In this document: positions 14,368 through 57,587 of the stretch, in pieces
How positions within the stretch are numbered: the stretch's first letter is position 1
Layout of the letters: each line of letters begins with the position of its first letter
Source: Thuidium tamariscinum
Taxonomy: Eukaryota > Streptophyta > Bryopsida > Hypnales > Thuidiaceae
Assembly (NCBI GenBank): GCA_947034885.2
Contig: OX344751.2
Location: forward strand, 37,229,082 to 37,293,081
DNA: 64,000 nt
Direction of reading: 5' to 3'
The notes under the pieces: model-generated
What the model was told of the DNA's origin: nothing
What the model saw: the letters and a program-made list of their open reading frames with translations, nothing else
The model's database searches: none
Position numbers and translations under genes: made by a program

Positions 14368-17038
14368 TGCATTTTGTCTAATAACATGTGGTTCTATAAG
14401 AATTATAAAAATAAATCAATGCATTCTTACTTCAATCTTTATTTTTTATTTTTTATAAATAATTCAACATGGCAATTAATACATGAGTAGGATATTTTTT
14501 TGAGAATTGCAAAAATAAAATTGCAAAATGTTTATTAAAAACAAAACCCTTTCTTTTTGTTTTTTTACGTCATTTCAAATTTAAAAATTTGATTACTAGG
14601 ATGATAGAAAGATTTGTAAAAACTAAAAAGAGAAATTTTAATAAAAACACCACTCTTTATTTATTTATATATTCAAAGTCACATATCATTCATGATTAGG
14701 AGGAGCCTTAGAGAATTTCAAAGAATAAATAGGGAAATTTTTACTTAAATTTTTACTCCATACTTTTCTAATTTATGAGAGAAATAAAACATGAATAGGA
14801 TGATTTTTTGAAAATTGCAAAAAAGAAATGGATGAGTTCTCACTTAAATCTCTGGCCATTAAGACTTTATTTTTGAAAGACTTGTTTATTTGTGTACTTT
14901 GGGTAGCCCCTTCTATAGTTGCTATTTCCATGGTCATTCCACTTACATACATCTATTTAAAGAGGATAAAAATTTCTTGAAAGAGATTTAATTTTTCTTC
15001 TACCCATGTTTGTCCTTAAGTTTGTGCCACTTGCATTTGCACCACTTGTATGCACCATTCGAAAGAAAAGAAATGTTTTTTGGAAGATATTGGCCTTTTT
15101 TTATATTCTATTATTAGAAAAATTGAAGAACCATCTATGTATCTACTTTCAATAAATCAAATTTCATTGAAAGTATCCTTAAAAAAGTCATTAAATCATT
15201 TCCTTATATAAATGCACTTGGCTCTTGATTATTTAAATTTGAATTTTATAAGGATATAGTATCAACATCCTATACTATATTATAGTTAATGAAGGGTTAT
15301 TATTATTATTATTATTAATTTTTTTTTTACTAGAAATTAACCCTCTAGTTTGACATACAAATATACATTTTTATATGTTGACAGGTATGTTTGGGGTACC
15401 CCATAAACGGCATCACACAATCAAATTCACTAAGATTCATTTCTTTAATATAGATTAAAATACAATTCTTATGTATTTGAACGAAAAACAAGGGTTTGGT
15501 TCTTTAGGGTACCAGAAGTTTTCACCAAAAGAAAACCTAAAGAACCAAACTTAATTTTTTGAAATATAATTTAAACATAATTAAACATAATTTTAATCCC
15601 TAAAGAACCAAACTTCGTTTTTTGGGAACATAGCAATTTTGGACAACTCACTATAGATGAAATTTTCGTTTTTCACTCTGAAGTTTTTCTTAAACATGCA
15701 CCCGAGGAGTAGCTTTAAGGCCCAACAATTTTCATAACTCTTGACTAGATAGTTAAAAAGTTATTGCATGGTATATAATTTTCTTTGTTTGGCTGGCAGC
15801 CCGGGCAGCTTAAGAAACTTCTTAAATTTTTTTTTTAAAATAAAAATTTGAAACTGGTTTTTTAGATTTATATAGACATGGGAAGCTTTGACTTATGTCA
15901 TTTGGATTAATGAAATGAAAGTTATGAGGAGTTTTAGTTTGATTGTGGGTAGTTTGTAGGAAGTTATAGATTGTCTAGTCTAAAATAAACTTTGAAGTCC
16001 TTTATTTAATTCAATTTTTAATATTTTGAAAAAAAATAAAAAAAATTGGTGACGATTGTTTATTACAGCATTACAACCATTCGGATTGGCATTTTTTAAC
16101 TTAATAAATTAATTTTTAATAATTTAGTATTTTGAATCATTCTCTACCTCTTTCCACTTACTATTTTTTGTACATGTTGCACAATTCCAAATAATTTGAA
16201 ATTTTTCAAGCATGTAGCCAAGTTGAATTGAAGAAAGAATCTAGAGTATCTGACCCATTTCCAACCACTTAAGCAATTTTGCATATTTCAAGTGCAAATT
16301 TTTTGGATGTAAAATTTTTCTCACATAGAAAAATAGAGTTTAAAAGGAGTGTATATTTTTCAAAATTTTATCACACAAAATGTAATTACTGTGAATTTTT
16401 TACTCAAAGATTTTCTATGACATGTTATAGTCATATAGACCTTTCTATTTCTAACCGTAGGTTGATTGCAAAATCTAACAAGGGGTGATTGCATTTAATA
16501 GAGCTTTATAACCAATCATAATGTACCACAACTACTCCGGGCTTTGTGCCACAACTTTACGGAAAGAGAAGAGTTTATAGATTGGAAATAGGGTGGTAGT
16601 TAGAAATGGGTTGGACACTCTAAACAGTTACAATCATTTTGGACATTTTTTCATACAAATGTGACCTTTTGAAGTGCAGCTGCCCGAAGTTCTGCAATGG
16701 TAAAAAAAGAATTTTCGTTTCTTCAAACACTAATAACTTGCAATCTACATGGTGAAAATTTTTCTGCATGCTGTCAAACTATTACACCAAAAGATCCTAT
16801 GGTAACATTATTCCTAAAATTTTTTTTTCCAGACATTTGGTAGTTGTACTAGACATGACAATTATAGAGCAGTTTTGGTGAAAATATAGTCAAAAACCTT
16901 TAGAAATTAATACAAATTTGCTTACTTCAAATAGATTATAATATGAAATCATAAAAAAAATTATCATTAATAAATTAATGCTGTTAAATTAATTCCTATA
17001 ACTCTTTTCAAGACTGTACCACAGTGTCCTTTTTTCAA
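14368..17038. other. AT-rich non-coding flank
   Basis: No gene is seen. Collinear blocks with copy 2 are about 14,370-15,265 with 43,575-44,465, and 15,300-17,030 with 45,160-46,410. Similarity stops at the GAGC-rich motif at 17,041. Confidence 0.6.
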
Positions 17039-17040
17039 CG

Positions 17041-17107
17041 ACGCTAGCGTTCGAGCGTGGAGCGGTGAGCCTGTGAGCTGCGAGCGGGAAAGTTGTGAGC
17101 GGTGAGC
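17041..17107. repeat. GAGC-rich junction motif, copy 1
   Basis: Seven GAGC tetramers lie within about 65 bp, mostly spaced 7-8 bases apart, beginning GCTAGCGTTCGAGC. Related motifs occur at 34,335-34,387 (inverted) and 47,928-47,975 (direct). All three sit at an edge of the duplicated segments. Confidence 0.55.
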
Positions 17108-17569
17108 ATGAAGTAGCTTTTTTTTTAGGAATTTGGACTAGAATTTTTTCCAATCAGTTTTTTTTCCAAAAGTCAACAAAAAATTACTATTTATAGTAAA
17201 TTTTGCTACCTATGACCATGTCTCCTATAATCGTGGATTTTCATGAAATCTCATATTTTTTAACCATTAATAATAGCATGTATACAAAAAAGTTTAGGGA
17301 TTTAGGATTTAGGGATCAATAAAAAACAAGTCAAACTCTTCAAATATAAAAGGCTCATGTGCCTTCTTTCAGGTTTTAGGACTTTTTGTGAGTAGACAAA
17401 ATAAAAATGGGCAACTTTAAAAACGAGATAGAAAAAAAAGTTTGAATAATATATATATTGCAAAGAAAGTCAATGTTCGTGATTGGATACCATCACTTCT
17501 TCATTTCATTTCTAGCGCATGGAGAAGAATACAATATGAATGTACAACACTCCAAAAACCTAATCATGT

Positions 17570-20500
17570 CTACTTTGAAATAATGATGATCCCTGCTCGA
17601 ACTAGGAGTAGCTTCAACTCATTAAAGCTATAACTAGGTGCATGAATCAATTTGTCATCATGAATATCCATCTTGCAGAAGTACCTATACAAATAATACA
17701 AGTGCTTACAATTCACATATTGTGCTCGGCCTCCCACAGCAGATACTATCATATTGACAAAGTCAGGGCATGTGCATGAAGGAAATGTACCCATAGTAAC
17801 TCAATATACGTTTTTGTTGGACTCTACTCCAGTCTGTAGCACCACTATTGCACCAAGTCCAAGAAGGGGTACGAGGGTCACTCCTACAATTTCCCCTTTG
17901 ATATTTGAAGCACTTTCCCATTTGTTGCGTTGCTCTACGGTTGAAGGATTTGCAAGTCTTTTGATTGTTCGGTTGTTCCTCACTATAGGGTGCACATTTG
18001 CATTTGGTGGACATGGTTGGGTGAAGAAGATAGGCTCAAAAATCTTAGACATGGCAAAAAGTTCACGCGGCGACAATGTAGGACGTTCTTGAAGACGGAA
18101 GCCTGCATGCTGTAACAGTAAGGTTTCTTCACGATTCAAATTGGTCCCCGTTAGAATAGGCCAAACTTCAGGCACCTCTGGCCTATCAATGACCCACTTC
18201 CTCTTTGTACCTTTCACACATCGTTCAATGTCATCCCAACAAAACCAAAAATCCACAACCACTGGGCGCTTAGTTCCATACTCTTCTTTCCTACCGCGAT
18301 AAGTAGGAGCAGGGGGTCCTTTTCCACCCTTGGCAATCCTTGAGGTACACTTGATGTTTGTTGTTGAGCCCAGCATCTTGCATTTGATTTGTGGCCGATC
18401 CTTGCAATGTGCCACTTGGATGTGTCACAATCGGTTTCACATGCTACCGTCACATAATTGGAGGTATTGACTTCATTGCGATTTCCAATGCCTTCCATTG
18501 AATGTACTGCAACCTAGGTAGACCTAGTGCGGACCCGCGGTTGCGAGAAGTTGACTTTGTCTGGTCTATGTGAATCTCCAGCATCACCGATAGGTACATC
18601 AAGCCTCCTCTTTGTGCTCCCAAAAATTTCTTCTCCTTCTAGATGAGGTACTCGAGTTCCTACACCATGTGCTTCTGGCAATGTATTCAATGCTTCGGCA
18701 ATTTTTTTTGGACACCCACTGTGCCTAACGGCCCTCAACCTCAATTCTCCCTTTGATGGTCCTGATCCACATGCATGTCCTCTAAGGTATGCTTGGTAGT
18801 TTGTCATTTGCATCCAAGCTCGAATACTGTCATCACAAGTGGCGTCGAATAAATTGTTTCCTTTTTTCCCCGACATTTGTAGCCACTTGTTATGGATCGT
18901 TTCCGATAGATTACAAAAAGGCATGTCTGTCATCTCTTCTAAAGTAAGACCCTACAATTCCAACCACAGGCAGGCATGAATCAAAATACAATTCACTCTT
19001 ATTATACAAATTAAATCTCAAATTGCTCTCTATACATCTAAGAATTTTAGTATGGTTTAGGGTTTAGGGAAGTACAATCACAAAGAAGAAACAAATAGTA
19101 TTATGGGTTTGCAGAATGCAAATATCTCACTTGAGAAAAAAAAATGGAAACATAGTAACAACAACTAGTGCTTCAATGGCAACCAATTTTGAACCTCGTA
19201 ACATTATATTTTTCTAAAATTAACTAGGGTTGGGAAGCCGTCGGATCCGACGGATTTTATATATAATATCACTTTATAGTACAGTAAAAATACTAAATGA
19301 TTGAAACTTCAAGCAACTACCATTTCCATGAATGCCTTATTGTAAGATTTATAAGAAATATACTTATAGCCGTTGCATGTAATAAGTGCCTCATTGACTC
19401 TCTATCCTACTTCCTTTAATAATTCTTTCAAATTTCTACTATAAATTATCTTTAAAAAAAATTTGAAATGATTTGTATTTAAAATTTTAATTACAAAGAT
19501 ATTAAAAGTTAAAAGAATCATCTCTTCTATATAATTGAAGTAAAAAATTGTCTTATTAAATAAAAATACAAAATATAATTTTTAAACCAAAATAAGATCT
19601 ACATACCATTGTCATGAAGCCTCCCCACTGTAAATAACAAAAATGCCAAAATACTAACCAATGCTCCAGGTGATGAAGTGAGTCTTCCGTTGTAGCTCCA
19701 GATGATAACCACCATGACCAAATTGCAAGATAGTGCACCTCCGCTTCATCCAAAGTTTTGGATTCTTTGTATTGTTTACATAGTGCAATGTGTTGATGTT
19801 GTAGTCCTTGCTTGATGTGTTTCTGGGTGTGCTTCTGAAGAGAATTACTCCAATGCAGTAGGCATGTTTTCTCACAATTCGTCATAATGTCATCTGCTGA
19901 ACCACTACCATAGACAATGCGAACTGCATTCCAATTGGCCATTGCGCTATCTGCCATGAATCCTTTAAAATTTGGCTCAGCCACTCCGTGTTTCTCCATT
20001 ATAGCATTCAATGACCTCCAGAACTGTACTTGAATCTCTGTATCTTCTGATTGCATATCGCACACTACAATGGTCATGACCTTCTTGTACTGAGAGTCAT
20101 ACACGTGGCATGCCATAGTGGTCCAGTCCTTCACGCGCTTCACGTGGTCGAACATCATCCACGCATTCTGTAGATCACCTTCAGGTTGCATGCGCCTTAC
20201 CAAGTCCATTCTACTTCCAAGCCCTTCAGTCAGCATTTTGAAGACATAAACCTTCTCTTTGCCTTGGCTTAGGAAGACACTGTCGTGTATAAACTGGAAC
20301 TTCGATTCCTTCTTCATAGTCATAATGTTGTCAATGAACCCTCCTTAGTTATTTGAGCGGAATGAGGAGATGATATTCCGTATACTAGGACTACTTAAAT
20401 ATTGGAAGCAATCCATGACCTCTTCCATTTCCTCTCCCTTCAATATCTTCTTCTCTCCTTCTCCGTGGTGAAAAAGGTGGTTCGTAAGGAAATCCTTGCT

Positions 20501-21774
20501 AGCGGATAAAGCTATGGCGGAGTTTGTAGCTGAAGGAGTTTTGGCAACTTGTTCTGCTATGAGTTCGGTAATTTCTTTTGTAGAATCTCTATACATGCCT
20601 TTTGCTATTGGGTGAGTGTGGTTTCCTAGATGAATAGCAACCTTAGTCATATTTGGGTTATCACTGTAGCAGTAGTAAATTCTAGCATCACAGGAGTTGA
20701 GGCATGTAGGTATTGTTTTGCAGACTTTACAAACTACTTTGCAATCTTTTGGTGGAACAACTCCTACTGCAAAAGGAAGTATTGTAGAACCTATCCATTA
20801 TGTTTTATTTTTCTTAGAAGTCCTAGACAAGTACTCGCAGCTAGGGTTTTCACAAATAAGATGGCCAACACAGAATGACTTACGGAACTTCAAATGGTCC
20901 AAGTTGTGGATGTTTGTTGTCACTAGCTTGCACCACCCATGTCCGTCGTACCGCTTGTCCATTCCCTCCAAGTTCTTAGCTGTAGATGAAGAAGAAGAGG
21001 CCGACATGGCGGTAGTTCAAAGATGGCATCTCCGTTGTAAGTAGGTGGTAGAAACTCCACTTGGTGATGCTTCACAGCATTCATATCTAATGTTGACAGT
21101 TCATTTCGTGAACGGTGAAGACCAGAAAGTCCCTTCAAGCATTTCATTATACTAGTTATATTACCTACACTTGGATGACAAACTTGTTGTGAGAAGGTAC
21201 GTTGCTCAGAAGTACTAGTGGAGGTGTTATGTATAGAGTACGTAAGACTGATGTCATTGGATTTTTTCTTGACCAAGGAAGGGTCCATGTCAAGAGTCAA
21301 GGAAGGGAACTCGCCTTCTGACTCACTAGATAGTTCTACAATAGTCTCTAACAGCTCTACCTTTGCTTTAGTTGGCAATTCAATTTGTGCCAATGTAGGG
21401 AAGCATCCTATAGGAATAGTAGGATTATCACTCCCAGGTCCAGAAGATCTGTTCACTGTAGAATTATCAGACTGGCGACTTGCTAGCTCAGTCGACGAAG
21501 CTAACATAGACAAAGGGAGACCGTAAGTCCTATAGTTCCCGAGCCCTAAATACCAGCAATGCCCTTCATCAGAGAGACATTTTGAAAGCGGGATTGACTG
21601 AAGTAATTCACTAGACTCAGAATGACGTTCTTCTTCAACGTAGATAGATGACTCTACAAACTTAAATCGAACATGAAGCAAGTGGCTGAATACAGTAGCA
21701 CGACCTTCTAGGTCTAAAGGAAAGACTAACGGAACCTGATGACCATCTACGCGAATGCTTGCCATGTCGCTCAC
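17570..21774 (-). pseudogene. Decayed MULE-type transposase with SWIM zinc finger
   Basis: The start is taken at MSDMASIRVDG (21,774). A Cys/His segment (GHLICENPSCEYL) follows at about 20,850, then HLGNHTHPIAKGMYR (about 20,620) and a DDE-like region with GFMADSAMANWNAV (about 19,950). A donor at about 19,608 (ATG then GTATGT) leads to an acceptor near 18,952. The second part has NNLFDATCDDSIRAWMQ and ends in a SWIM finger (CTC, then NCKH) at 17,700-17,780. Mutator-like transposases carry this order of DNA-binding, DDE and SWIM domains. Decay is clear: in-frame stops at 20,798-20,800, 20,345-20,347, near 18,514 and just before the SWIM finger, plus frame changes near 21,010 and 18,420. No terminal inverted repeats were identified. 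Confidence 0.75.
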
Positions 21775-21779
21775 AATTG

Positions 21780-22225
21780 CCTATAAGATAGAAATGTGGG
21801 TAGAAATGGCTTGAGAGAGTGAAAAAAAGACATATGGATTTATATAGGGCTTTGAAGGGGGCATTGATTATCTGTAAATGATGGAAGCTAGGACAATATG
21901 GATTAAGGGTTGATGGTTTAAAGGTAGAGGAGCTATAAAGTTTAAACAATAGTTTTACATATGAATATTACATTAGAATTAGTGAATGCAAGGTCTGTAC
22001 AACAATCATTACTTTGTGTAGTTAAATGAAGCGCCCATAATTTTATATGTACTAATTAGGTTAAATTATAGAATGATCTTATTTGTATTGAAATCAAGGG
22101 GATTTAGATATTCTGCCGTTGGATTTGTGGCGGTTGGCGAAATGATTATTATCCTGGCGAGTCATTTGAAACGGCTCTAAGTCTCTAGTAGATCTCATTC
22201 AATATACGAATTTATAATTCTACTG
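21780..22225. other. Gene-free gap upstream of the MULE remnant
   Basis: No gene is supported. It separates the MULE remnant (minus) from the minisatellite and the plus-strand ORF at 22.5 kb, and could hold a 5' or terminal region of the element. Confidence 0.4.
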
Positions 22226-22230
22226 ACATT

Positions 22231-22515
22231 GATGGCGGTGTCTCGTCAAGTTGCCTCGGGCAGTGCAAATTTTGAATTCCAAGAATTGACGGCGTTGTCC
22301 CTTCATGTTGCCTCGGGTAGTGAAAATTTCGAATTCTAAGAATTGACGGCGTTGTCCCTTCATGTTGCCTCGAGCAGTGCAAATTTCGAATTCCAAGAAT
22401 TGACGGCGTTGTCTCTTCAAGTTGCCTCGAGCAGTGCAAATTTCGAATTTCAAGAATTGCCATAGCTGTCTCTTCAAGTTGCCTCGGGTAGTGCATCCTT
22501 CAAATTTTGCGAATT
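22231..22515. repeat. 57-bp minisatellite, five copies
   Basis: The landmark GTTGCCTCG recurs at 22,250, 22,307, 22,364, 22,421 and 22,478, an exact 57-bp period. Because 57 is 19 codons, the minus strand stays open in two frames across the array, giving 19-residue repeats (for example LEETTPSILGIRNLHCSRQ). Substitutions between units are few. It is probably a tandem repeat rather than a gene: no flanking coding sequence continues the frames. Confidence 0.9.
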
Positions 22516-22540
22516 GCCGGGGCCGGAATTGATATGTCAT

Positions 22541-22977
22541 ATGACACGCGTGAAGTACAAAGGTGGCTTAACGTTGAGAAGTATACAAGGGATTCTTGGA
22601 ACACTGGAGTTCATTTCATTGTCACCTTCTGAGTGGAGCTTTCATTTTTGTGTAGAGCAGGAGTACCTACTTGTTCTATATGCTCATGATTTTAGAGCAC
22701 TCAAGTGCACTTTCTGTCCTTTCAGAGCAAAGCAAGAGTCATATAGGAAACACTGCTCTTTCTTCTATTCTTCTAGGAAAGTTTTGAGGAGAGCGAAGAA
22801 GACTCTGTCAAAGCGAGGTCGTGGTCAATCGAGTCAGTCGCAGAGGTCTCATTCTTTCGAGGGAGAGGGAGGTGATCATTTGAAGAGTGCTGAGGACCAA
22901 AATGCTGATTCTGTGCAAGAGTACCTGGAGGAGGCGCATGCCGAGGATGAGGGCACTAAGTCACCGGAAACGTATAT
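22541..22977 (+). CDS. Unrecognised basic/acidic ORF, probable first exon
   Basis: The frame from ATG (MTRVKYKGG) reads about 146 codons to a good donor (ATT then GTAAGTC) at 22,977. A possible zinc-binding cluster CTFCPFRAKQESYRKHC is followed by a Lys/Arg-rich segment and an acidic Glu-rich tail. I do not recognise the family, and the next exon was not identified. It is divergent from the MULE remnant across the minisatellite, so it could be an accessory gene of that element or an isolated gene fragment. Confidence 0.4.
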
Positions 22978-22979
22978 TG

Positions 22980-24567
22980 TAAGTCAATCACACGCATCTA
23001 TCTAGTCTTGTGCATTCCAAGTTGTTAGAGTTGTAAACATTGAATCAATTCAGTGAACAACATGTCTTAAGGTGCCAACATAGTTGTGCTCAATTATTCC
23101 GTTAATAAGAGCTATTGAAGGGGATGCAACAGTAGCAAGTAGAAATAGAGGAGCCATTCTTGTGCATGTTTGAATGCCAACTATGAGAGCATTGTCAGGA
23201 CATTGCTTAGAGTAGAAATGACAGAGAGAAATGAGTAAAAAACTGTAAATCATATGAACAGTGAGTTTTGATTGAGGCTTAGGGTCGGAGGAGAAGCTTA
23301 GACATTCTATTGTATAAATAAAAGAAATTTCCTGAGTACTATATCGACAAAGCAGAGAGATTTTCCTATACTCATTGGAACCTATAGTGAAAATTGAGAG
23401 AATTCAGTATTAGTGCAGGGTTTTGGGTTTAGGGTATTAAACCAGCCTTTTTCAACCACGCAATAGGGGCTCTAAAATGGACATGAGAATTCTAGAAAAG
23501 TCACTTCTCTCTTATGATGGAGCTTCATGTCATTTTTTTTTATTCTTCAATAAATGGTTGGAGAACAATACTTCATTTATTCCTAACTAAGTGTCTAGGT
23601 GTCTACCAATTTACTTCAAATTAAAAATAGGTCAAATAACTACTACACTCAAAATAATTAAAAATTTGAAATCAAGCATTCACTTTAGAGGAAGTAAGAT
23701 ACACTTCAAGAAACCATTTCAATGACTTTATAAATAGAGCAATGCCATTTTTCAGTTTTAGACTTAATACTTCTCTAAATATGCATAGATGCATTCCCAA
23801 GTGCCAATGATCACAAATAGGAATTCTAGCCAAGTTTGTGTTTGAAAATTCGTAACTAATTCAATAATGATCAAAAAAATATGAAACAACTTGTGTTAGA
23901 TTTCTAATTCATTTCTCTTAAAGTAAAAAATATACTAAAAATATTTTAAGGTCAAAAAATACACCCTAAACCCGGATCAGTCCAAAGCTGTTCGGTTTGT
24001 CAACATCCCGGACTCAAGTAAAATTAGTTTTCCGATTTCGGGTCCATGAGGCGAAGCCATTTACCCAAATTCCAGCGTATAGAAATTAAAAATAGCGTGG
24101 ATCATGAACATTCCTCGAGGAATGTTGGGAGAATTTCCACCGTACTTTCTCAAATTTTGAAGACGCAAGCTATCCCACCTACCGAATTGAATACTCTCAC
24201 AAATTTCCAAAAGTATCCCAGAGTAAAACAACGGCCACCCTATCGCGTGCCTTCATTGGAATTTCAGAAGTCAACGACTGCCGAAAGTTTTGCTCGAAAT
24301 CTGAGCAAGATTCGAACCTCATGGGCGCCGCCACCATTCTAGCGCGTCATGTTTGCTTTCTCTTGCAACTACGGGAGACCGTCAATCGGTAAGGACTTTG
24401 GAAGTTACTTTCAGATGACGATAGCGCTGGAATGGTGGCGGCTTGATATTAAGCAGCTTGGCGCTCCAAGCCTTCCTTTTCGGTTTGATTTTTCTATCCA
24501 AAATCATCTTCCGCGACACTCACATCCCATTCACTCCTCGCAGAGCTCTCATTCAGTGTTGTTGTAG
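22980..24567. other. Gene-free stretch upstream of gene A
   Basis: No gene is supported from 22,980 to 24,000. From 24,040 to 24,567 the sequence is less AT-rich and lies just upstream of the gene A start, so it likely contains its promoter and 5'UTR. A 98-codon open frame at 24,046-24,342 has no recognisable feature. Confidence 0.45.
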
Positions 24568-27175
24568 ATGGCGAGGACTACACGGAGCCGGGCGCGACTT
24601 GGAGAGAATCCTGAGGAGCAGGTGGCACAGCATGAGGTAATACGGCCTCACTGATTCAATTTTTTTTCGTTTCTCTGAGCCGCACGGAGTGTGCACAGAC
24701 GTGTCTTGCGGTCTGGAGTTGTTTCAATTTCTTGTAATTCACGGTAGTGATGACAAACTTGGTTTCAAATGATGAGTGGGAAGTCAACCTTCATCTTGGA
24801 TCCAGAGAGCTGAAAGCGAGAGAGTATGGGTTTTAGACGTTCTTCTTTGGTAGATAGCGTTCACAGATCGGGCTCCACATTCAAGGCGCGAGGACAGAGT
24901 CCAAGGTGCGAGCTTCGGGAGTATCGCGCCACGCGCCTCCTACGTGGCAGGCGCACCCTGGACTTTCTCCCGCATGATGCGCACTAAGGGATTGACCACG
25001 TAGCTCGTGTCACGCGCCACTCTTTCAACTCACGCGCGCCTTGTCTGTCGCAACACGCCACGCGCTTCCGTCGCGCCCACAGCGCTCTCCGTGCCCTCTT
25101 ACCCTATGCCACTGCAGCACTACGACCACCACGCCCTGCGCGCCCTGCGCCACCAGTGCCAAGCGCGCCCAGCACGCCTTCTGCCCCCGTGCACCCTGGA
25201 TTCTTCCGCTGGCAGTGGTTTTGGATTTCTTTCCTTCGAGTTCTCATGACCGTTGTCAATTTTATGAATGCAGAGTTTAGGTAGCACGAGCCAGCTTGAA
25301 AAACCAAGTCGGATCCGACATGGTTCTCCTAGTTGGCTCGTACTACCCACAGATGAAGTTCAAAATCTGCTTAGACTAACTGAGATTCAGATCTTGCAAT
25401 TTTTTTAAGTTCAATAGGCACTGTCGGATTTCAATTTTTGCATTCCCGATGTAACTCATGGTGGCGTCTAGTTTTCACTTCGAGGTGCAGGTTAATCATA
25501 TTCACATCTAAACTCGTTTGATTGTTCAGTTCCTTTTCAGTTCGATGATTTGAATCTAATTAGAAATGATGGCATGCATTTCGGAGGTACCACGAGGCAC
25601 CCCACGAAACCCCGTTGGATCAGACTTAGTTTTGTGCGGTGCCTCGTGGTACTTAAGAAAGCGCCGTTTTTTTTAAGTCAAATAACCTGGCGTTCACTTA
25701 CAGTTCAATGACTGCCGACTTGGAGGCATCTGGAAGTTCCGTTTTTGATTTCGAACCTGCTGACCTGTGGAGAGGGGAGAGTTCACTGACTGATTCGGTA
25801 CTTAAACTTCAAGTTCCGGTTTGGATTTCGAATCTGCTGACCTGTGGAGAGGGAAGAGTTTACTGACTGATTCGGTACTGAAACTTGATGAGAACCTCAA
25901 GTATCAAGACACTAAGTCCGAGAATTTCACTTACAACATACACTGTTGTTTTCAGTTCATGGATACAAATTTGTCTTCGTGGATCTCAAGAATTGCTAGA
26001 AGTCCATAATTTAGCCTGTCACTCTAAAAGTAATGGTATGAGAGAGAAATTTTGAAGATTTGCATTGCCCTCATGCACTTATTTGTGGAAATTTCAAAAA
26101 AATGGTGAGAATTTGGGGTACTAGTGTACTACGAGCTGCAGCAAAAAACCAAGTCGGATCCGACTTGGTTTTCTGCTGCAGCTCGTAGTACCCCAAAATC
26201 TCACCATTTTTTTGAACTTGGATGATTCTCGCACTTGAACAGGTCAAGAATATTTTACTTTGGCAGTACTAAATCATCTTCTGAACGATGAAAGTTCCTT
26301 TTTTTCCTCTACCCCCGCGTTCTCTAACGTTTCGTTTCATAGATGTTCCATAATTATCATTGGAACTCTATTTCATTGACATTTTCAATTCTAGTTTCAG
26401 TTGTCATAATCCTTCACTTGAAGTTCAAACTTTCTACCTTGCTTCTTGAAAGTATATTAAACATACAATCCTATTATCTATAGATATTAACCTTGATTGT
26501 TTTTGGATTAGGCCACTACTGGAGCTACCAACGTGGGTGAAGGCAGTGAAGAATTACAGCAACAAGTATGCCTTCCTACACTTGTCAAATTTCTTAAAGA
26601 AGTGTCTTAATTCTCTCATGATTGAAATAGCTAAGTCATTTGGCAGTATGATGTAATATACATTTGAAAAAATGGCCAAATTTCATTTACTTCAAAATAT
26701 GACTTCAAGATTGATTGTAAAGTGTTGTACTTCATTGTCCAGGGGCAAACGCTAGAAAGTTTCATCTACAGAGAATCAGCGTCCTGTGGTGCAAGGTGTT
26801 CCATGTATGGAAGTTGGTGGATCCTCTAAGCCCCAGAAATCTACACACTCTGGTGTTTCCCTCTCTACGCATGAAGGCAATGTGCATCAAAACTTGGTGA
26901 GTTTCGATGACGTCATGGATGCTGCAGAGCGAGCCGTTGATGCATTCAAAACTAGTGTGCTTAGTGGGACTAGGGGCAATGGCCCATGGTTTTCATCTTT
27001 CAGCTCTGAAGAGGAATATTCATCTGACATGGAGCTCTCGAACTCTAGCAGTGTTGAGTTCTTCGATTTGTATACAGGAGAGAGTGTTGTAAATCTAGAC
27101 TTGTTTCAGTCTGATGAGATCATTGTCCTTAGCTCAGAATCTGATGAGGATGATGATGTGCAAATCATAGATTAG
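24568..27175 (+). CDS. Gene A: small nuclear-type protein with acidic SIM-like tail (three exons)
   Basis: Exons 24568-24636, 26512-26565 and 26756-27175, all joined in phase 0 at GT..AG sites, give about 180 residues. The N-terminus is Arg-rich (MARTTRSRARLGE). The middle has VSFDDVMDAAERAVDAFK. The tail, EIIVLSSESDEDDD followed by VQIID, fits the hydrophobic-core-plus-acidic pattern of SUMO-interacting motifs. A diverged copy on the minus strand at 53,981-54,420 keeps NLVSF, MDVVERA and VIILSSDSEGDD, so the protein family is real. I do not recognise it beyond that. It precedes gene B by 223 bp in both copies' order. Intron 1 is about 1.9 kb and contains three foldback hairpins. The function is unknown, and the SIM reading is inference. 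Confidence 0.6.
25280..25347. repeat. Foldback with GTCGGATCCGAC core (1)
   Basis: The left arm GGTAGCACGAGCCA pairs with the right arm TGGCTCGTACTACC around the central AAGTCGGATCCGACATGG. It lies in intron 1 of gene A. Confidence 0.8.
25586..25652. repeat. Foldback with degenerate core (2)
   Basis: The left arm GGTACCACGAGGCACC pairs with the right arm GGTGCCTCGTGGTAC. The centre CCGTTGGATCAGACTT is a degenerate form of the GTCGGATCCGAC core. It is 240 bp from foldback 1, in the same intron. Confidence 0.75.
25731..25892. repeat. Tandem duplication, unit about 77 bp, two copies
   Basis: AGTTCCGTTTTTGATTTCGA and the following block ending CTGACTGATTCGGTACT recur about 77 bp later with a few changes. 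It lies in gene A intron 1 and is non-coding. Confidence 0.75.
26094..26215. repeat. Long foldback with GTCGGATCCGAC core (3)
   Basis: The arms of about 57 bp are nearly perfect. The outer part TCAAAAAAATGGTGAGA mirrors TCTCACCATTTTTTTGA. The inner part runs through GGGGTACT, CGAGCTGCAGC and AACCAAGTCGGATCCGACTT. The left arm has an extra 8 bp (AGTGTACT). It lies in gene A intron 1, about 300 bp before exon 2. Transcribed, it would form a long hairpin. Confidence 0.9.
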
Positions 27176-27828
27176 ATAGACTTGTAAACTTAAGAATAGC
27201 AAATACTATTCCAGGATGTACCCTCACTAAGGCTACTTTAATATTGTAAATGTGCTTGATCCTCGCTTTGCAAGTACTATTTTTTACTTGAAGTAAAGCA
27301 TTTTCTTACAAATGTATCAATTTGTTTATATTAAATTTTATTATTGTTTTTGTTCACTATGAATATTTTATTTATTAAATTTGAATTTGCACTCCTAGAT
27401 GGATATCTCCCTTTCCAAAACCACGGATGAAGAGACAATCTTCGAAACACCAAACTCTCAAAACCAGAGACAGCCAGAGATTGAACAAGCAGAAGGAGAA
27501 GGAGAAGGAGAGGAAGGAGAGGAGGACACGGAGATTATCATTCAAGACCGTGAGGAGAAGTTGATGTCAGAGGAAGAACTCCGACATATTCAAAAAGGTG
27601 ATGTTGTGAAGCTGTTGGGACAACTTCGGATGAAGCTCGAAGAGGTATTTTGTATGCATATTCCGTTGTGCAGACTTGTGGCAATGCCAATGGTCAGACC
27701 GGCATTAGCATCTGATATCGCAAAACTTGAGCAAGAGTTTGCAGCTGGAGGATACCAAGATGGAGCTGTGGTATTCTATGTGTCAATGACAAACGAAGAT
27801 GGAAACACTGAAGAGTTCACCCAACAAG

Positions 27829-28929
27829 CACTACTAGAAAAATCATGTCCAGATCAACAAAAATTTAACAGAAAATTGTTGATATGTTTTATTGATTTGG
27901 ACGTGTTGTCCCGGACATACGAGAACAGAAAAGTGTTGATTGGTTTGTTCATTTTTTTGTTAATTTGGACATTCATGAGAAAAATTTGAAAACATAAATT
28001 TTTTCGGACCAACCAAAATCTGCCACGTGGCAGATGCCACATCAGCAAAGTCGAGCCACGTAGGCAGCCCTATCACGCGGGCAGGCCACCTAGGCAGCCC
28101 CGTTACGCGGGTGGCCGCCGACCATAAGGTTTGAACCTTAGACCTCAAGGTTGAGGTCCAAAGTCTTAAGCTACTACAACATGCTTAGCCACAAGTGATC
28201 TACAATGGAATTAGAATTAATTTAGCTACTTCTTCCTTTTAGTTTGTCTTTATTATGTTAAAATGAGCTGACTTTGATGGCTGTTTACACATAGAAAAAA
28301 AACTTATTTAAGAAAATTTCCAACTAATAAAAGTTGGAATATACAACAAAATTTCACTTGAAAAAATCCTTTTGAGATTTCAAGTCCCCAATAAAAAGTT
28401 ATGGATAGAATTTAGAGAAGGTTTCTTAAAATGTCAAATACAATGTCCTCTTTAATCCTTCTCTGATTTTTGTTCATAACTTTTGATTGGAAACTTGAAA
28501 TCTCAAACGGATTTTTGGAGATGAAAGATAATTTTATTTTTCAACTTTCATTAGTTTAAAGTTTTCTCAAAAAAGTTGTTTTACTATGCAAAAATGGCCA
28601 CCAAAGTCTGCTGATGTTCAAAAACACTAAATTTTGAATGATTGACTTGGGAAGAAGCATTTGTTTTTGCATAAAATTTCAAGCACGGTTATTTAGACAT
28701 TGCACAAATGTAGAAACTTATATGAAACTTTTGAAATTCCTAGTTAACAAATAAGTGTAAATTTTTTTGTTGATTTGGACATTGCACTACCCAAATCAAC
28801 AAAAAATTTTACACTTATTTGTTAACTAGTGCCAAATCAACAAAATTTTGTGAAAACGGTCGATACAGTACCCAAATTAACAAAAATTTGTTGATTTTTT
28901 GTTGATTTGGACATCATTTTCTAGTAGTG
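27829..28929. mobile_element. Non-autonomous CACTA element, 1,101 bp
   Basis: Both ends read CACTACTAGAAAA inward. They are flanked by an exact 3-bp target duplication AAG (27826-27828 and 28930-28932), as expected for CACTA/EnSpm elements. Subterminal copies of TTGTTGATTTGGAC occur in both orientations, with a strong internal hairpin at 28,745-28,840. No transposase is encoded. It sits inside the first coding exon of gene B, and removing it with one AAG restores the frame seen in copy 2 of the gene. A related internal stretch (28,440-28,650) is found at 63,190-63,370. Confidence 0.92.
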
Positions 28930-31900
28930 AAGAGATAGACAATTGGAACCCCATTTGGAAGGAGAAGAATGAGGTCTTCAAACAGAAGTTTGAGTCAAAG
29001 CCAGAGCTTCAGTTCTTGAAGAACTTGAAGCTCTTCATTTGCAATGGGAACCACAAACGAGTTGCTTGGATGAATTACATTTCCAAGCACTCAGACAAGC
29101 ACTGCAATGTGGACTCTATTATGTTGGATACGAAAGGGCGCAATGAACTTGTCATGCAAGTCATGCATGACGTAAACAAGTAAGTTCTTTCTTTCATATT
29201 GTTTTTATTTTTCAAAGAAATATTCAATTTGAACGTTGTATTTTCTTGGAGGTAGTTTAGATCTTTGGCTTATATTGCATTGAATTGTTTTCAGGTTTGT
29301 AGAAGACTCCCATGTGAAGATGAACTTGGTACACACCTTGTACTAAATTCAGAAGTACGGAATGCTACCCATAGCAAAGTTTGCAGCTTTATTTAGGCCT
29401 GCAGAGAGGAAGAGGTGCCTTGAGGACAAGGTGACTAAAAAATGGTATTCAATTCAACCCGAGGTCTTCACATCCTTCATCTTCCGGATAAGGTCTTTCA
29501 ACTAGTTTTTGATAAATATATTTTTATTTTAAAAAATCATCATTGTCCATATTGACTTCACATCTAATTGGGTTTTTTGTGCAGCAAGAAATTTCACAAG
29601 CTGTAGATGCAATAGTAAGAAGGTACATGGAGGCCACACAAGAGACTGGAAGTGTACCACTACAGGCAGCCGAAGCAATGAGGTTGGGAGCAAGGGAATG
29701 AACAAAGGTGGCCATGGTGAAGATGTTCAAATTGCTAGCGGTGGCCAACTCAGCAAACGGAGAGGACTTCCTTAAAGAGGTACAATTCAGTAATTTATCT
29801 CCAACTTCATTTAAATTGTTCAAAAGACAGTTCAAATCCATATTGAAAAACTAATTGAAGTCTTCTTGTAGGTGGAAAAGCATTGGGGCAATTACGAGGT
29901 GCCTGAAATGACTTTGGAGAAGCTCCATTTGGTCGCCACTTGCAAGATGACTGCAAAGCACAAGACAAAGATACTTCAATGGTGGAATTCTTCTACTCTT
30001 TCACGTGAATCAAGGAAGTTGCCACCAAAACCTGTCTCCGAACTCTTACTTCCTCAATTTTTGGTGAAGTGCACTTGGTACGCTAGGGTAAGTGTTCAAT
30101 ATCTTTTCAAGAGTGCTTTGATATTAGGAGAATTCCAGATCCTCTATGATGCCTTTAAAATGGCATCAGTTGGGGTCCTTCATTGAATTTGAAGGGGTAC
30201 TTAGCAAAGACGCACTCTATTTTTTCCCATAATTTTCATGTATTTTGACACTGCAATTTTTGTGAAGGTACATGATTTTAATAAGATAACTAGACTTTAG
30301 GTACTACTTGTCATTTGAATTATAGTACCATAATCGATTTTTCTTGCTAGCGACAAACAATAAACAATTAAGTAGTAATGGTTTATGAGTTTCTCAACTT
30401 ATTAGTGAGAATGTATTTTCTTAAATATTATAGGTACTTTATATTCTAGAAGTTTGCACAATCTAATTCCTTTCATTCAATAATAAAACACTTGGTAGTT
30501 CTTTTCATTAAAATATTTGGTAATACAACTGAACTTTTTGACTATATCCCATTTTTCAGATAGAAGATGCTGCAGTGGAGTTTTTTTGACAAAATTGTAA
30601 AAGAAGACAACCTTTCCATCGACTACAACGTAAAACCAAAACCAGAGCGGCTACCAGAGGACATAGAAGGATGGAGGCAGAAGATTTGGGAACATGGCTT
30701 CATGAATTACTTCAAGGGCCAGAAGTACTTCAAGAGGGGCCAAACTTTTTCATCTCACGAAGGCTCTAACACTGTGGTGCGCAGAGTCCTTTATCGGTAT
30801 GTCATTTTCTTTACTACTTGAAATTTTGTGGCGTCATTGTATACTTTGTAATTATAGAAATCCCATAGCATCTTCTACTTCATTATAAATCTTGAATTCG
30901 TATTGTCTTGGCTATTTTTCCACCCTTAAAAGGATTGTAATTTACAACTTCTATGTTATATTTTGCTCTTACTCTTTCATTTTGAGATTGAACAATGCTC
31001 CATATAACTCATTATGATTGAATTACAGGTACTTCAAGTTAGAGCTTGAAGCAAAGGGGGCCATTGCAAAACTGGACCTCCCTCAATTCCTTCCACGCTT
31101 CCTCAACCGCAATTCGAGTTCATGCATGTTCAGCCCACATCGATTGCGCACCTACACTACTGCTCATCTCTTTGGCGCGGGTTGGTACTTGGATTGCACA
31201 CTGGAGTTCACTCATAATTCGGAGGCTAAGCTGAGGGCATCATTGGAGGGCAAGGGGATAGTAGATTTGGAGGCTGTTGATGAGTTCATCGGCATGGATG
31301 ATGATGTTAAGAGGAGGGCCATCAACAAGAGGGATGCACTGGACCGAAAGAAAGAAGTGAAGAATCAACTCATCGTGGAGGCCAAGGAGAAAAAGCAAGC
31401 GGAGAAATCAGCAAAGAAGGCGGAGAAAGAGGCCGAGAAGGCGGAGAAAGAAGCCGAGAAGGAGAAGGAAGAGAAGACTAAGGCCAAGGGAAAGAAGAAA
31501 GTGGAAGAGAAAGGACAAGTCTTAGCTTCCTCCACTGTGAATCAAACACAAGGCGGAGTACCAAGGAAAATCACCATCTCACAGCTCACTGAAGATGTCA
31601 TTTCACGAGTCACACAAGCCATGGTCCTCTCCGATGATGATGTGCCAAAGACTGAGGATTTAATCCTTAATATTTGCATTGAGGACATCGCCATGGATAT
31701 GGAGGACAAAAGACAGGGTGCCTACGACGAGGTCTTGAAGTACTTGGTTCAGGTGATCTCTTCAAACATCTTTGCTCAAATTTATTTTACTTATTGTCAA
31801 TGATATGAATGCTATGCACCAAAGTTGCTATAATGAAACATTGAAGAAAAATTTATCTCTGGTCCACAATTATATTTTGTATTCAAGAATTTTTGTATTT

Positions 31901-31940
31901 GAAAAAATTAGTGAGACAACAAGGCAGAATTTACAATTTT

Positions 31941-31954
31941 GTCGGATCCGATGG
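31941..31954. repeat. Isolated GTCGGATCCGA core in gene B intron 6
   Basis: GTCGGATCCGATGG without obvious long arms. The preceding sequence (AAGGCA, then ACAATTTT) resembles that before the core at 33,801, suggesting both belong to one dispersed repeat. Confidence 0.5.
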
Positions 31955-33571
31955 AATCACTTAAACCGCTATTTTGTTCTGTATTTCCCTACTCAACATT
32001 ATCCACATTCATATGGTTTTGTTTTCTCTAGGAATAGTTGAACATATTGACAAATGTAATTTCTTTTTCAGCTCAGACTTTTATTGAAGTGACCCTAAAA
32101 TTCCTAATGTTGTACTAAATACTATGAATCTGCTTTGAAAGGTAGAAAAGTATACAATACTAATATATTGAAATTCTATTGAAATATGCTTTTGCAGATG
32201 GCAGAGGGCAAAACTCGCATGTTTGAAGGTGTGGCAAATGCAAGGGCTGATGTTGATGTCATCTTTATTGACTATCCAGAGTACTTGCCTGTACTAGGCA
32301 TTTCTCTTACGTCGAAGGAGGTGCCAAATTGGAATGCAGATTTAGAAGCTAATGCTTTGCAATCCGCTTGCACCTTTGCAGTAGAGCATCTGTACAATGA
32401 TGGATGCATCATTGTGTTTCACTCCTTCAGCATTGCATCCAGGGAAGATCTAGCAAGAGTTTGCGAAGCATTTAACTTCAAGAAGAAGAAAGACTGGCTA
32501 GGCATGAACCGCATGCATTTCACCTCGCCAATGGACACCACAAAAACGGTAATTTCAGTATAGATGCTTCAGTTTTTGTCACCTATTTTCTTTTAAAATT
32601 CTATTCATTGATCTCTAATGTTCTTGTGTCATATATGTTGCAGACACAGAAGTTTGGAGTCACTCTCCTTGTCAAGGACCTCAAAGCAAAAGGCGAATCC
32701 AAATTTTCTTTCAAGCGTACTGAGATGATGAAAAAGGCTAGGGTGGATGTTGAGAATGATGACATGCTGATGAATTACATGCATGCAGATGACATCTCCA
32801 TGAATGGGAAGAAGCCATGGAGAGGCCCACGTGAAAAAGATCCAAGGTTCTTCACCCTCCTCCTTGAAGCCACAAGCAATGAAGGGGATGTCATTGTGGA
32901 CTGCACGGCATCCACAGGTTTGTCTTCAATTTTAATATTTCACACTTCTATGTCATTGTAACAATTTTGTCATCTCTCTAATACATTTTCATTACATGAA
33001 TGCCCTAGGTGCTTGCATTTTGGCTTGTAGAGGAACTGGACGCAACATTCTAGCTTTTGAGGGGGACAAAGATGTTTTCAATGCCATTTTGAAGTCCATG
33101 AAGAAGTCGTCACCTTCAATGCCAGTGGCTCCAACCCCCGAGACAACAGTGGACTTGACAATGGATGTGCAAGACGCGGCGCCTATTGTGCCTCGCAAGT
33201 TCGTTCGCAAGGGAAAATCCAGTAAGTAAGTAGAAACTTCTTTCATTCTTTATTATTTTTCTTCATATCACATTTGCAAAGACTAATATAATGTCTTCAA
33301 TTTTTGCAGAGGTTGTGGATTGATCTTGAGAGAGGTCATGGAACAAAATCAAAGGCTTGTCGTTAGTCCAGAGAAGCCTTTCAAGCTACCACCGTATGCA
33401 GAGCAGATGGCAAGTGCCTTTGCAAATTTTGGTTGTTCCAAATCAAAACAATGCAAAGACACTTACGCCCTCAATGTCTTACAGTTTATAGATGCTTCTG
33501 CATCTGAGGGACGGGAGTCCTCAGAGTCCTCTACAGGGTCAGATTCAGTGACTGAGTCCACAGCCACTTAG

Positions 33572-34334
33572 ATTCTTGAGATTGACTAATCTCTTGAATC
33601 ATACTATTGTGTATTATTTGGATTTTATTTGGATTGGATTTGTGTGTTTTATGGCTATTTCTAGAAGTCTCAAATTTCTCTTTCTATTATTTGATTTTTG
33701 TTTTGAAAACATCTAAGGCAATGGCTCTTGCTAGTTCTTCCAAAACCTACACCGAAAATAAATAAATAAATTTTGAGGCAAGAAGGCAACACGTACAATT
33801 CCGTCAGATCCGACAAACCTTTACATATTGACCATCCAATTCTTTCTCTTCATTATACATCTCATAATCAATCTTCTTTCAACAACACCTAGATTGACTT
33901 ATTTAGTGCATGAGTTGCATCAAATTAGAGTATTTCCAATGCCATTTTTTATTTCAAGGTTTGAGTATTTATGAGATGTTCTTTGCTGTTTTCATTTTGA
34001 CTTCACATTCCTTAATTTATCTCTATATAAAAAAGATTTAATATTCTAAATTAAAGCTAATCGACAATATAAACCTAAGTGCTTTGATTCTCACAATTAG
34101 ATTTTATATCCCTACTCTTGTGTATACAATGTCCATGATCATAGGTGTATGCAAAGAGAAAATGAAGAAGAAAACAAAAAGTGACTTCTGTAGTCACATC
34201 TTTCAAAATAGACATCATATCTTCTTTGTCGCCTAAACGTTGAAAGTCCACGATTACAAGTACTAAACTCTAATTTTTGTTACCCTAAAATCCACGATCA
34301 TAGGTGGTCAACTCAAATTTTTTTCAAAATAAAT
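33572..34334. other. Gene-free stretch after gene B
   Basis: The first about 95 bp after the stop is still similar to the sequence after gene B copy 2 (TCTCTTGAATCA and GTTTTATGGCTA), so the duplicated unit includes a 3'UTR. A degenerate palindrome core CCGTCAGATCCGAC lies at 33,801-33,814. No gene is seen in the rest. Confidence 0.55.
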
Positions 34335-34387
34335 TTCCCGCTCACAAGCTCATAGGCTCCTGCTCCCCCGCTCGCCTGCTAGCAATC
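34335..34387. repeat. GAGC-rich junction motif, copy 2 (inverted)
   Basis: CCCGCTCACAAGCTCATAGG followed by further GCTC units and ending CTGCTAGCAATCC. It is the complement of the motif at 47,928-47,975. It directly precedes the left edge of the repeat that starts at about 34,390. Confidence 0.55.
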
Positions 34388-34389
34388 CT

Positions 34390-35770
34390 GGTCCTTTTTT
34401 CATTCAAAAATAAAAAAATAATCTCAAAACTTATTAGAAAATGTATTCAAATTACTTTATTGGTTTATGATGTTTCCATAACCAATTGTAGAAATTTATA
34501 ATTTGATATCGGATATTTAACTTATTTTTTATTATTTTGCAAATCATCCTATATACTACAAAAAAGGGCTATGTCTAAAAAGAATTCAAAATTGAAGATT
34601 TCTTTGAATATCATACTTGAAATATGAAAAGTGAGTTGTAAAGTAGTAAATAGGCCAAAAACCATAATAAAATTCTAACATATATATATATACATATATA
34701 TATGTTTGTATTATCTATTGATATGAAATTAGCTACTAAATCCTAATAAATACGAAAATTAAATATTAAATATTAAATTAATTTTGATTCTTCAAAATAA
34801 TATGGCTATATGTGTTAAAGCAAGAACTAATGTTTTTAGAAAACTAATCTCAATTGTAAATTAGGCTATTTGCAATGATTTCATTATTAATTCCTTGGTG
34901 CTCGAGTGGGGTACTCGAAGCATGCTTATACCCATGTAGTGAATTTATACACATTGCAACAATGTCACAATAACAATTTTCTTGTTTAAGCCCACACTAT
35001 TTTTGTTTAAGATAAGAGATGATTTAAAATCTAATAGTTTTTTTGAACTTGTAGACCTCATAAACTTAGAGCTTGACTTAGAGTCATAAACAATACACTT
35101 GAACATGTAATCTTATATTTAGAAGTTTCATATATATTTTTATTCATTTTTTCCTTTTATATTTAGTATAAAATAAGGTTTTTGATTAATTTGCGTTTCT
35201 CACTTATTGGAAGAAGAAAGCCTTAGAATTGAAGAGTACTAGTTCATTTTTCTAATCCCTTGTCTAAATAATTCTTTTTCACATTGATCGTGTTTTGAAA
35301 TACCATATTTTGTACGTGATATGAGCTCTTTTTAATTTCTTCAAAATTTCACAATATTTTCAAAGTTCACAAAAAAATCTAGAAATTTTATATGTATAGA
35401 GATATTATTGTGACTACATCCGTGGAAAAGTATATTAAAGGACATGATGAAGATTGTGAAAGTATTGTGGGATATAATGCTAAACCCACTAGTTCATCAT
35501 AGACACTTATATCTAAACTTTTTGCAAATCTATAAGTATACGAAGAGAGTTTGTGATTTGAATTATAACGCTTTTCTAAGTATGCAATGGAATGGTGACA
35601 AATTTGCCTTGAAAATCCGACTTGGCATTATAAACATGAACACTGGAGTACTTTCTGCTCAGCATTGAATTCAAAGTTGTAATGTTGCATTTTTCAACTC
35701 CTTGATCTTTTAGTTTTGGTTTCCTTTAATTTTTGGTTTCTTACTGTTTTTGTTCAAGGGTGTGACTGTC
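34390..35770. repeat. Dispersed repeat, copy 2 of 3
   Basis: Collinear with 46,420-47,800 in direct orientation, including the TATA-rich microsatellite at 34,680-34,705 and the block ending ATGAACACTGG. Its presence on both sides of the syntaxin copy 2 segment suggests the segment is one unit of a tandem (about 12 kb) duplication. No gene is recognised. Confidence 0.8.
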
Positions 35771-47925: not shown

Positions 47926-47927
47926 AA

Positions 47928-47975
47928 GCGAGCATAGGAGCGTGAGCTTGGAAGCCTAAGAGCTTATGAGCAGGA
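47928..47975. repeat. GAGC-rich junction motif, copy 3
   Basis: TTGCTAGCAAGCGAGC followed by further GAGC units. It is in direct orientation to 17,041 and inverted relative to 34,335, and marks the right edge of the third repeat copy. Confidence 0.55.
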
Positions 47976-48257
47976 AAATAAAGGTTCCAAAAAATCGATG
48001 AAGGTCCTAAGACCGTGGATGGTCCTATGATTGTGGTTTTGGAAACATACAGTGTATGTCACTTAACTGTTCATTGTTTTTGAATTTGTGGTAGAACACC
48101 TTCAGTTCATTGTAAGAAGTTTTGATTCCGAATTCATATGACTAATCCTTTTTCAAAAAGACAGCCAATTGATTATGCTTTAGAACTACATGTGATATTT
48201 TCTTGCTCTCACATTCAAGGGGATTATGTTTAAAAGGAAATGATTTCTATTTCATTT

Positions 48258-48612
48258 CCCATTTTTTTGGTAGATACTTTCTTTGTGGTGAACTTTAAAT
48301 CACTCCCCTTTTTTTCATAGAGACTTTCTTTGAGGTGAACTTTAATTTCACTCTCCGTTTTTTCTATAGAGACTTTCTTTGTAGTTTAGGGTGAATTTAC
48401 TCCCCATTTCTTTTGTAGAGACTTTAATTGTGGTGAACTTTAAATTCAATTCCCATTTTGTTTCATAGAGACTTTCTTTGAGATGAACTTTAATTTCACT
48501 TCCCATTTTTTTTGGAGAGCCTACCTTTGTGGTGAACTTTAAATTCACTGCCCATTTCTTTTCCTAGAGATTTTCATCGTGTTGAATTTCAATTGCACTC
48601 TCCATTTTTTTG
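48258..48612. repeat. 49-bp tandem array, about seven copies
   Basis: The TAGAGACTTTC landmark or its variants recur at about 48,271, 48,318, 48,367, 48,416, 48,466, 48,515 and 48,565, a 47-50 bp period. The unit includes GTGGTGAACTTTAAATTCAC. The minus strand is open through part of it, but the frame is just a product of the repeat. It lies about 300 bp beyond the 3' end of gene B copy 2. Confidence 0.85.
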
Positions 48613-55072: not shown

Positions 55073-55073
55073 T

Positions 55074-55806: not shown

Positions 55807-55890
55807 CCCAAAATCCACATGTCGAGGAGTCCCAAACCCATATGTCGAAGAGTCTTGAAGGCACAAACAATCTGTAGAGATGTGCCAATC

Positions 55891-57579: not shown

Positions 57580-57587
57580 CCCGCTTG

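Follow-up and report, generated by a model that had tools for sequence, protein, structure and literature searches.

Why should a moss carry, twice within 30 kb, a gene that resembles a bacterial ParB protein joined to a DNA methyltransferase? The question arose from a 64,000-nucleotide stretch of the Thuidium tamariscinum genome (assembly GCA_947034885.2, contig OX344751.2, positions 37,229,082 to 37,293,081 of the forward strand; hereafter the window), in which a first-pass annotation had described a small acidic gene (gene A) followed by a ten-exon ParB-like/beta-class methyltransferase-like gene (gene B), and a second copy of the pair. The two genes are cargo of a giant DNA transposon, which that annotation missed, and it also overlooked an array of palindromes. 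In the most economical reading, the transposon would encode its own sequence-specific DNA modifier together with the array of its targets.

The transposon and its family

Weak homology shared by the two copies continued past the 3′ ends of both (34290-34409 against 48020-47893, E 2e-11), and the same terminal block was found, inverted, near 17036; copy 1 was therefore delimited as a 17,355-bp element (Table 1). When the terminal 70 bp were compared, the left and right ends of copy 1 scored 58 and its right end scored 66 against the end of copy 2, values reached by none of 4910 random 70-bp pairs, while its left end scored 38 against the end of copy 2 (reached by 4 of 4910). Over 250 bp, the score of left against right was reached by 19 of 1937 random window pairs and was thus unremarkable, so the similarity of the two ends is limited to their tips. 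Scanning of the window with each terminal end (best 14 places per end, a limit that the right end reached) gave three ends only, namely the left and right of copy 1 and one of copy 2; the second end of copy 2 was not found within the 64-kb window. The flanks of copy 1, once joined, matched another long terminal repeat (LTR) of the window, LTR3, gap-free across 140 bp, and copy 1 was therefore inserted into an LTR.

When the genome (363 Mb, 19 contigs) was searched with exon 6 of gene B, at least 151 scored matches were obtained (843 candidates, 150 scored), so the occurrence twice in 30 kb, which had been taken as unusual, is not special. The matches listed fell mostly into two groups, above about 80% identity and near 60% identity. 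Ten other loci (a to j; 20 kb each) were hand-picked from both groups; both ends were seen in seven of them (a, b, c, e, f, h and i), and were not found within the 20 kb examined in d, g and j. Exact 10-bp target duplications flanked all eight complete elements (the window copy and the seven others, which are 15,372-16,373 bp long). Six of the complete elements (a, b, c, e, f and the window copy) belong to type I and two (h and i) to type II, the two types being about 73% identical where alignable. With 98.1% identity between them, elements c and e suggest that the family has been active recently. Among the matches listed, many lay on a 17.5-Mb contig (C11), apparently more per base, by impression and without a count; this contig could be a low-recombination or sex chromosome.

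Genes A and B

The two-gene unit on the plus strand (gene A, 24568-27174; gene B, 27399-33571) and its inverted second copy with the same exon/intron layout were borne out, as were the ten exons of gene B in both copies. The single consistent frame of about 1,114 residues that the first-pass annotation had reconstructed in the window was not, since gene B is broken in both copies. In copy 1, in-frame stops interrupt exons 2 and 3, exon 5 carries a frameshift, the splice donor that should follow exon 2 is gone (AT, against GT in 7/7 other copies), and a CACTA-type insertion splits exon 1. Intact genes were found elsewhere in the genome, in element b (1111 residues) and element h (1103 residues), each an uninterrupted reading frame with GT/AG borders at all predicted introns. 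The gene has one stop in e, two stops in a, and in i a single stop together with the loss of an acceptor and an altered frame; it is more broken in c, f and the window copy than in these three.

Read as protein, copies 1 and 2 agree in 567 of 1054 aligned columns (54% identity). The intact proteins of b and h share 733 of 1096 residues, with 0.235 nonsynonymous (dN) and 1.99 synonymous (dS) substitutions per site, a dS near 2 being saturated, and the differences at codon positions 1, 2 and 3 number 266, 190 and 556. From the dN and dS values and the codon positions it follows that selection has kept the protein; gene B is under purifying selection. The codon count between the window copies (dN 0.33, dS 1.72) includes overlapping out-of-frame blocks, and the comparison of b with h is therefore the better estimate.

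The match to gene A exon 3 is only partial in h and i, and is split in two in b. A 179-residue open frame at 22466-23005 is a possible third gene of the transposon, and a similar-looking frame lies at 5581-5955 of element b.

The palindrome array

The most over-represented GC-rich 10-mer of the window is CGGATCCGAC. The palindrome GTCGGATCCGAC was matched nine times in the window with up to two mismatches, against 0.4 expected, and eight of these matches lie inside the two elements. In the eight complete elements (127,557 bp), exact TCGGATCCGA occurs 37 times, two to seven times in each; it is absent from 29,798 bp of sequence flanking the seven fetched elements and from four 10-kb control loci. 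The incomplete loci d, g and j hold 1, 1 and 5 exact palindromes, respectively, and were entered in no element or flank count.

With up to two mismatches allowed, the eight complete elements contain 47 sites at recurrent places. These lie 2.2-2.9 kb from the left end in 8/8 elements; between exons 1 and 3 of gene A, where there are two to five (exon 1 was not found in element i); and, in 6/6 type I elements, at distances of about 2.45 and 0.6 kb from the right end. In copy 2 of the window, the palindromes stand at distances upstream of the last exon of gene A similar to those in copy 1. Most sites between the gene A exons form the centres of palindromes of about 90 bp, which share their outer box and their core but vary in the arm.

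Self-complementarity was tested on 18 of 25 such palindromes (three near-copies from e, three from the window and one outlier from h being omitted). Pairing was found in 706 of 810 cells, against at most 561 in shuffles, and in the variable arm in 129 of 162 cells, against at most 94 when right halves were redealt. Within five elements (f was not run), the arms of the same palindrome paired in 108 of 135 cells and those of different palindromes in 115 of 306. Dyad symmetry is thus maintained despite letter changes in the arms. The palindromes are also conserved above background: among five of the six type I elements (e omitted), sites were identical in 70 of 95 pairwise comparisons, which are non-independent and in which adjacent palindromes were perhaps aligned to each other, against 37,650 of 127,097 noncoding 10-mers, 1,771 of 8,984 with six G or C, and 889 of 3,622 with two CpG.

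The two halves of the gene B protein

Methyltransferase-like half. A beta-class methyltransferase fold is predicted for the C-terminal half of gene B, and this assignment, made from sequence profiles, is considered safe. In the PHROG database, 7/7 families matched by copy 1 are named methyltransferase (best E 5.2e-6); an eighth, unnamed family was matched by copy 2 only (E 0.23). By hhalign, the domain was aligned end to end over 199 columns with ten phage beta-class enzymes chosen among the matches to the same query (probability 96.4, P 1.1e-9), and over 181 columns with the C-termini of 34 viral ParB-methylases gathered by a ParB motif pattern (probability 66.5, P 5.4e-5). Both window copies matched PF01555 (N6_N4_Mtase), as had been proposed, at E values of 0.001 and 0.0022, which lie under the Pfam gathering cut-off, and NCBIfam CcrM at 0.006 and 0.00047. 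The intact full-length proteins gave worse matches in Pfam than the window copies (E 0.026 for b, no match for h). In a tblastn search against phages (460 records, E up to 10), 48 of 60 evenly sampled rows were named methylase or methyltransferase and 12 were unnamed or hypothetical. Motif IV stands ahead of motif I, the order that had been read from the window.

ParB-like half. In ParB/sulfiredoxin proteins, a GxxR(R) box sits between a strand and a helix. The pattern VRPxLxxDIxxLxxEF ... FICDGNHRR was recognised by eye in the N-terminal half of gene B; of six other copies printed, five carry FICDGNHRR and one FICDGNHKR, so that the ancestral CDGNHxR box predicted from the window is present in all six. 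No sequence relatives of gene B were confirmed in viral contigs or prokaryote genomes, and its first 600 residues had no plasmid match. A motif screen of 80 methyltransferase loci (plus strand only) yielded one long frame, without the ParB-like motif. Because of the motif pattern and of the same architecture described in the accessible part of a published report (PMC12477816), the N-terminus is held to be probably ParB-like.

Transposase and superfamily

The putative transposase gene occupies the left half of the element on the strand opposite to genes A and B, and has an open frame of 729 residues in element b. Cysteine/histidine clusters were noted by eye, including CxC...CxH at the C-terminus in element e, where the tail gave a weak match to PF04434 (SWIM; E 0.15, 12.1 bits, cut-off 19.6). 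The MULE domain PF10551 had no match at E 10 in the 729-residue frame of element b. Mutator-like transposons make target duplications of 8-11 bp, a range which the 10-bp duplications of 8/8 complete elements fit, and the element is provisionally classified as Mutator-like. It shares with Mutator-like elements (MULEs) the 10-bp duplication and terminal inverted repeats and may share a SWIM-like C-terminus, but differs from them in size and cargo and in having no Pfam MULE match. An origin from a virus or polinton was considered but not retained, given the 10-bp duplications and the presence of a transposase-like gene; no systematic search of the element for viral genes was made.

Proposed role and alternative explanations

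Our preferred reading, to which we give a probability of roughly 0.55, is that genes A and B are the accessory half of a provisionally Mutator-like cut-and-paste transposon, and that gene B recognises the palindromes, modifies or occupies the DNA of the element and marks it as self. The gene B protein, perhaps with that of gene A, would recognise GTCGGATCCGAC in the palindromes of about 90 bp in gene A intron 1 and at single sites nearer the ends. There it would modify or occupy the DNA, and the transposon, marked as self, would counter host silencing or guide its own transposase. In its favour stand the empty site and the target duplications, the intact gene B copies under purifying selection, the methyltransferase homology, the conserved palindromes that the examined flanks and control loci lack, and two published precedents, the Ectocarpus ParB-methylase and the VANC proteins. 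Binding of gene B to the palindromes, methylation and an anti-silencing purpose are what we infer.

Several results speak against this reading. No ParB match was obtained in Pfam, where PF02195 had been expected, or in NCBIfam, PHROG or the PDB, which gave weak unrelated matches or nothing; the ParB half is read from the motif. A profile of the two window copies scored no better than 100 column shuffles against 11 ParB/YbdM proteins, or against the N-termini of the 34 viral ParB-methylases (34 of 35 frames, one with a short N-terminus being dropped); a profile with the other copies added reached, without shuffle control, a best probability of 7.2 in a stretch of 18 columns that does not include the motif. 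In the PDB, the methyltransferase profile matched an unrelated repeat protein best (E 0.0005), ahead of DpnA (0.023) and, more weakly and among chance matches, CcrM, MboIIA and N4-cytosine enzymes. The Mutator-like assignment is drawn from the duplication length and the sub-threshold SWIM match. One window site with two mismatches lies outside the elements (11323), and the absence of palindromes elsewhere refers to the window and some 70 kb of flanking and control sequence. Finally, canonical beta-class enzymes have (D/N/S)PP(Y/F/W) as motif IV, e.g. DPPY, and FxGxG as motif I (DPFxGSG), neither of which was found in the six copies printed or, for motif IV, in the window copies. Motif IV is DCPE in four of the six, DCPK and DYPE in one each, and DYPE and DFPE in the window copies; motif I is DCTASTG in five of the six and DCMASTG in one. 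Because both motifs are substituted, catalysis by gene B may be altered or lost.

It is accordingly conceivable, as the best-placed alternative, that gene B binds the palindromes with a catalytically dead methyltransferase fold, as a DNA-binding or bridging protein. Most copies lack the usual aromatic residue of motif IV and the first glycine of motif I, and hhalign places DYPE of gene B opposite DPPY; however, substituted motifs do not prove inactivity, the two window copies show strong conservation around motif I, and purifying selection acts on the gene.

A second alternative has the palindromes serving the transposase, or the replication or repair of the element as hairpin or cruciform DNA, independently of gene B. 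The sites towards both ends, the ability of palindromes of about 90 bp to extrude as cruciforms and the self-complementarity maintained outside the core would fit this explanation, which we regard as rather unlikely, as the core letters are constant while the arms vary and most long palindromes stand between the gene A exons and not at the ends. Equally doubtful is a fully bacterial-style form of self-recognition, in which a ParB-like methyltransferase and parS-like palindromes would write a mark other than 5-methylcytosine and so let the element escape silencing; as part of it, the candidate mark would be N4-methylcytosine or N6-methyladenine, e.g. at GGATCC/GATC in the palindrome core.

That each palindrome is a small hairpin miniature inverted-repeat transposable element inserting repeatedly is improbable: the common outer box (GGTAC...) and the hairpin form would suit it, but the palindromes hold similar positions in type I and type II elements, are retained above background and are missing from the flanks and control loci examined. 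That gene B represents an ordinary family of host genes only incidentally associated with the transposon, as its length, many exons, two intact copies and purifying selection might suggest, can practically be dismissed, because in seven of the ten fetched loci and in the window copy it stands at the same place in complete elements with target duplications.

Features of the window

The coordinates of the transposon copies are collected in Table 1.

Table 1. Parts of the two transposon copies in the window
Feature	Position	Strand	Basis or remark
Giant DNA transposon, copy 1	17036..34390		17,355 bp; inverted ends, 10-bp target duplication
Left target-site duplication GTCCTTTTTT	17026..17035		exact 10 bp
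Right target-site duplication GTCCTTTTTT	34391..34400		exact 10 bp
Left terminal inverted repeat, CAACGACGCTAGC...	17036..17105	+	score 58 against right end
Right terminal inverted repeat, inward CAGGATTGCTAGC...	34321..34390	-	scored against left end
Putative Mutator-like transposase gene, broken in copy 1	17570..21766 (limits approximate)	-	open reading frames
Palindrome GTCGGATCCGAC near left end	19240..19251		window scan
Gene A exon 1	24568..24637	+	peptide identical in elements c and e
Long palindrome, gene A intron 1	25280..25347		window scans
Long palindrome, decayed core (2 mismatches), gene A intron 1	25579..25660		window scans
Long near-perfect palindrome, gene A intron 1	26090..26219		window scans
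Gene A exon 2	26515..26566	+	splice signals by eye
Gene A exon 3, acidic C-terminus	26740..27174	+	matched in 8/8 elements
Gene B exon 1, first part, ParB-like by motif only	27399..27828	+	window reading
CACTA-type insertion, gene B exon 1	27829..28929		terminal repeats; 3-bp duplication aag; 1.1 kb
Gene B exon 1, second part, GNHKR box	28933..29179	+	GNHRR in 5/6 other copies
Gene B exon 2, donor lost in copy 1	29295..29487	+	comparison with other copies
Gene B exon 3	29585..29779	+	window reading and other copies
Gene B exon 4	29872..30087	+	window reading and other copies
Gene B exon 5, frameshift in copy 1	30560..30796	+	window reading and other copies
Gene B exon 6, with K/E-rich segment	31029..31752	+	window reading and other copies
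Palindrome site, 1 mismatch, gene B intron 6	31941..31952		window scan
Gene B exon 7, predicted methyltransferase motif IV region	32198..32548	+	profile and other copies
Gene B exon 8, predicted methyltransferase up to motif I	32644..32917	+	profile and other copies
Gene B exon 9, remainder of motif I region	33009..33225	+	profile and other copies
Gene B exon 10	33310..33571	+	other copies
Palindrome site, 1 mismatch, near right end	33803..33814		window scan
Giant transposon copy 2, inverted	47913..64000		start matches copy 1 right end
Gene B copy 2, broken	48915..53741 (53741->48915)	-	same exon/intron layout as copy 1
Gene A last exon, copy 2	53981..54422 (54422->53981)	-	matched to copy 1
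Three copy 2 palindromes	55032..55778 (55032, ~55433, 55767)		window palindrome scans

The CACTA-type insertion in gene B of copy 1 is non-autonomous, with termini CACTACTAGAAAA and an internal inverted repeat at 28260-28618. In copy 2, a short insertion in exon 1 of gene B (53292-53584) has ends matching 12109-12207 and 14185-14369 of the left LTR element, a 75-bp CACTA-like hairpin (55074-55148; CACTATAACAAAAAGTGGT..., possible duplication agg) adjoins a palindrome, and a 49-bp tandem repeat of 7.4 copies (48249-48611) lies immediately downstream of gene B. Large open frames with a cysteine-rich stretch and DFAENY...SDGCASQFK were noted inside or beside copy 2 (58749-63259); they had no homology to the transposase of copy 1, and 61004-63259 had no match in Pfam.

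Around the transposon copies, 1916-47826 looks like a tandem LTR-retrotransposon array, with three LTR copies at about 1916-3497, in the middle (split by the giant element and resuming at 34391-35798) and at 46405-47826. The two internal regions between them are 94.6% identical over about 6 kb.

Relation to known systems and significance

In the literature search made for the ParB-methylase architecture in transposons, PMC12477816 was the only report obtained. In its accessible part, Sola1-1_Ec32 of Ectocarpus is described as a 21.5-kb giant DNA transposon with a ParB-methyltransferase accessory protein of 1104 residues, for which binding and marking of its own transposon is suggested. Compared by description and not by sequence, the moss gene B is alike in its size of about 1100 residues (1111 and 1103 here), in being cargo of a giant transposon on the strand opposite to the transposase, and in its predicted ParB-like and N4/N6 methyltransferase domains. 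As far as that account goes, the moss element differs in its 10-bp duplications, its provisionally Mutator-like transposase, its small acidic gene and its palindrome array. Since ParB-methylase accessory genes are thus already published for algal giant transposons, gene B is a variant and not a new kind of protein; what is new here is another type of transposon, a small partner gene and a candidate palindrome target array.

A second comparison is offered by the VANC proteins of Arabidopsis VANDAL transposons, which, according to the accessible part of PMC5735166, counteract silencing and induce loss of DNA methylation; VANC21 binds a short motif that recurs in accessory-gene introns of VANDAL21 and upstream of its transposase gene. 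The moss element resembles them, again by description, in having a transposon-encoded protein and short repeated motifs in comparable places, its action being only proposed. It is unlike them in that gene B resembles a DNA methyltransferase, whereas VANC induces methylation loss, and in that its motifs are palindromic.

With phage and viral beta-class N4/N6 enzymes, including ParB-methylase fusions, gene B shares a colinear domain with motif IV before motif I; it departs from them in having mostly DCPE and DCTASTG, in being a ten-exon eukaryotic gene and in an N-terminus that profiles do not recognise as ParB.

How eukaryotic transposons resist silencing by their host is poorly known, and the published function of ParB-methylases is only a suggestion. 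With the palindrome array present in 8/8 complete elements and intact genes available in the genome, self-targeting by such a transposon becomes directly testable.

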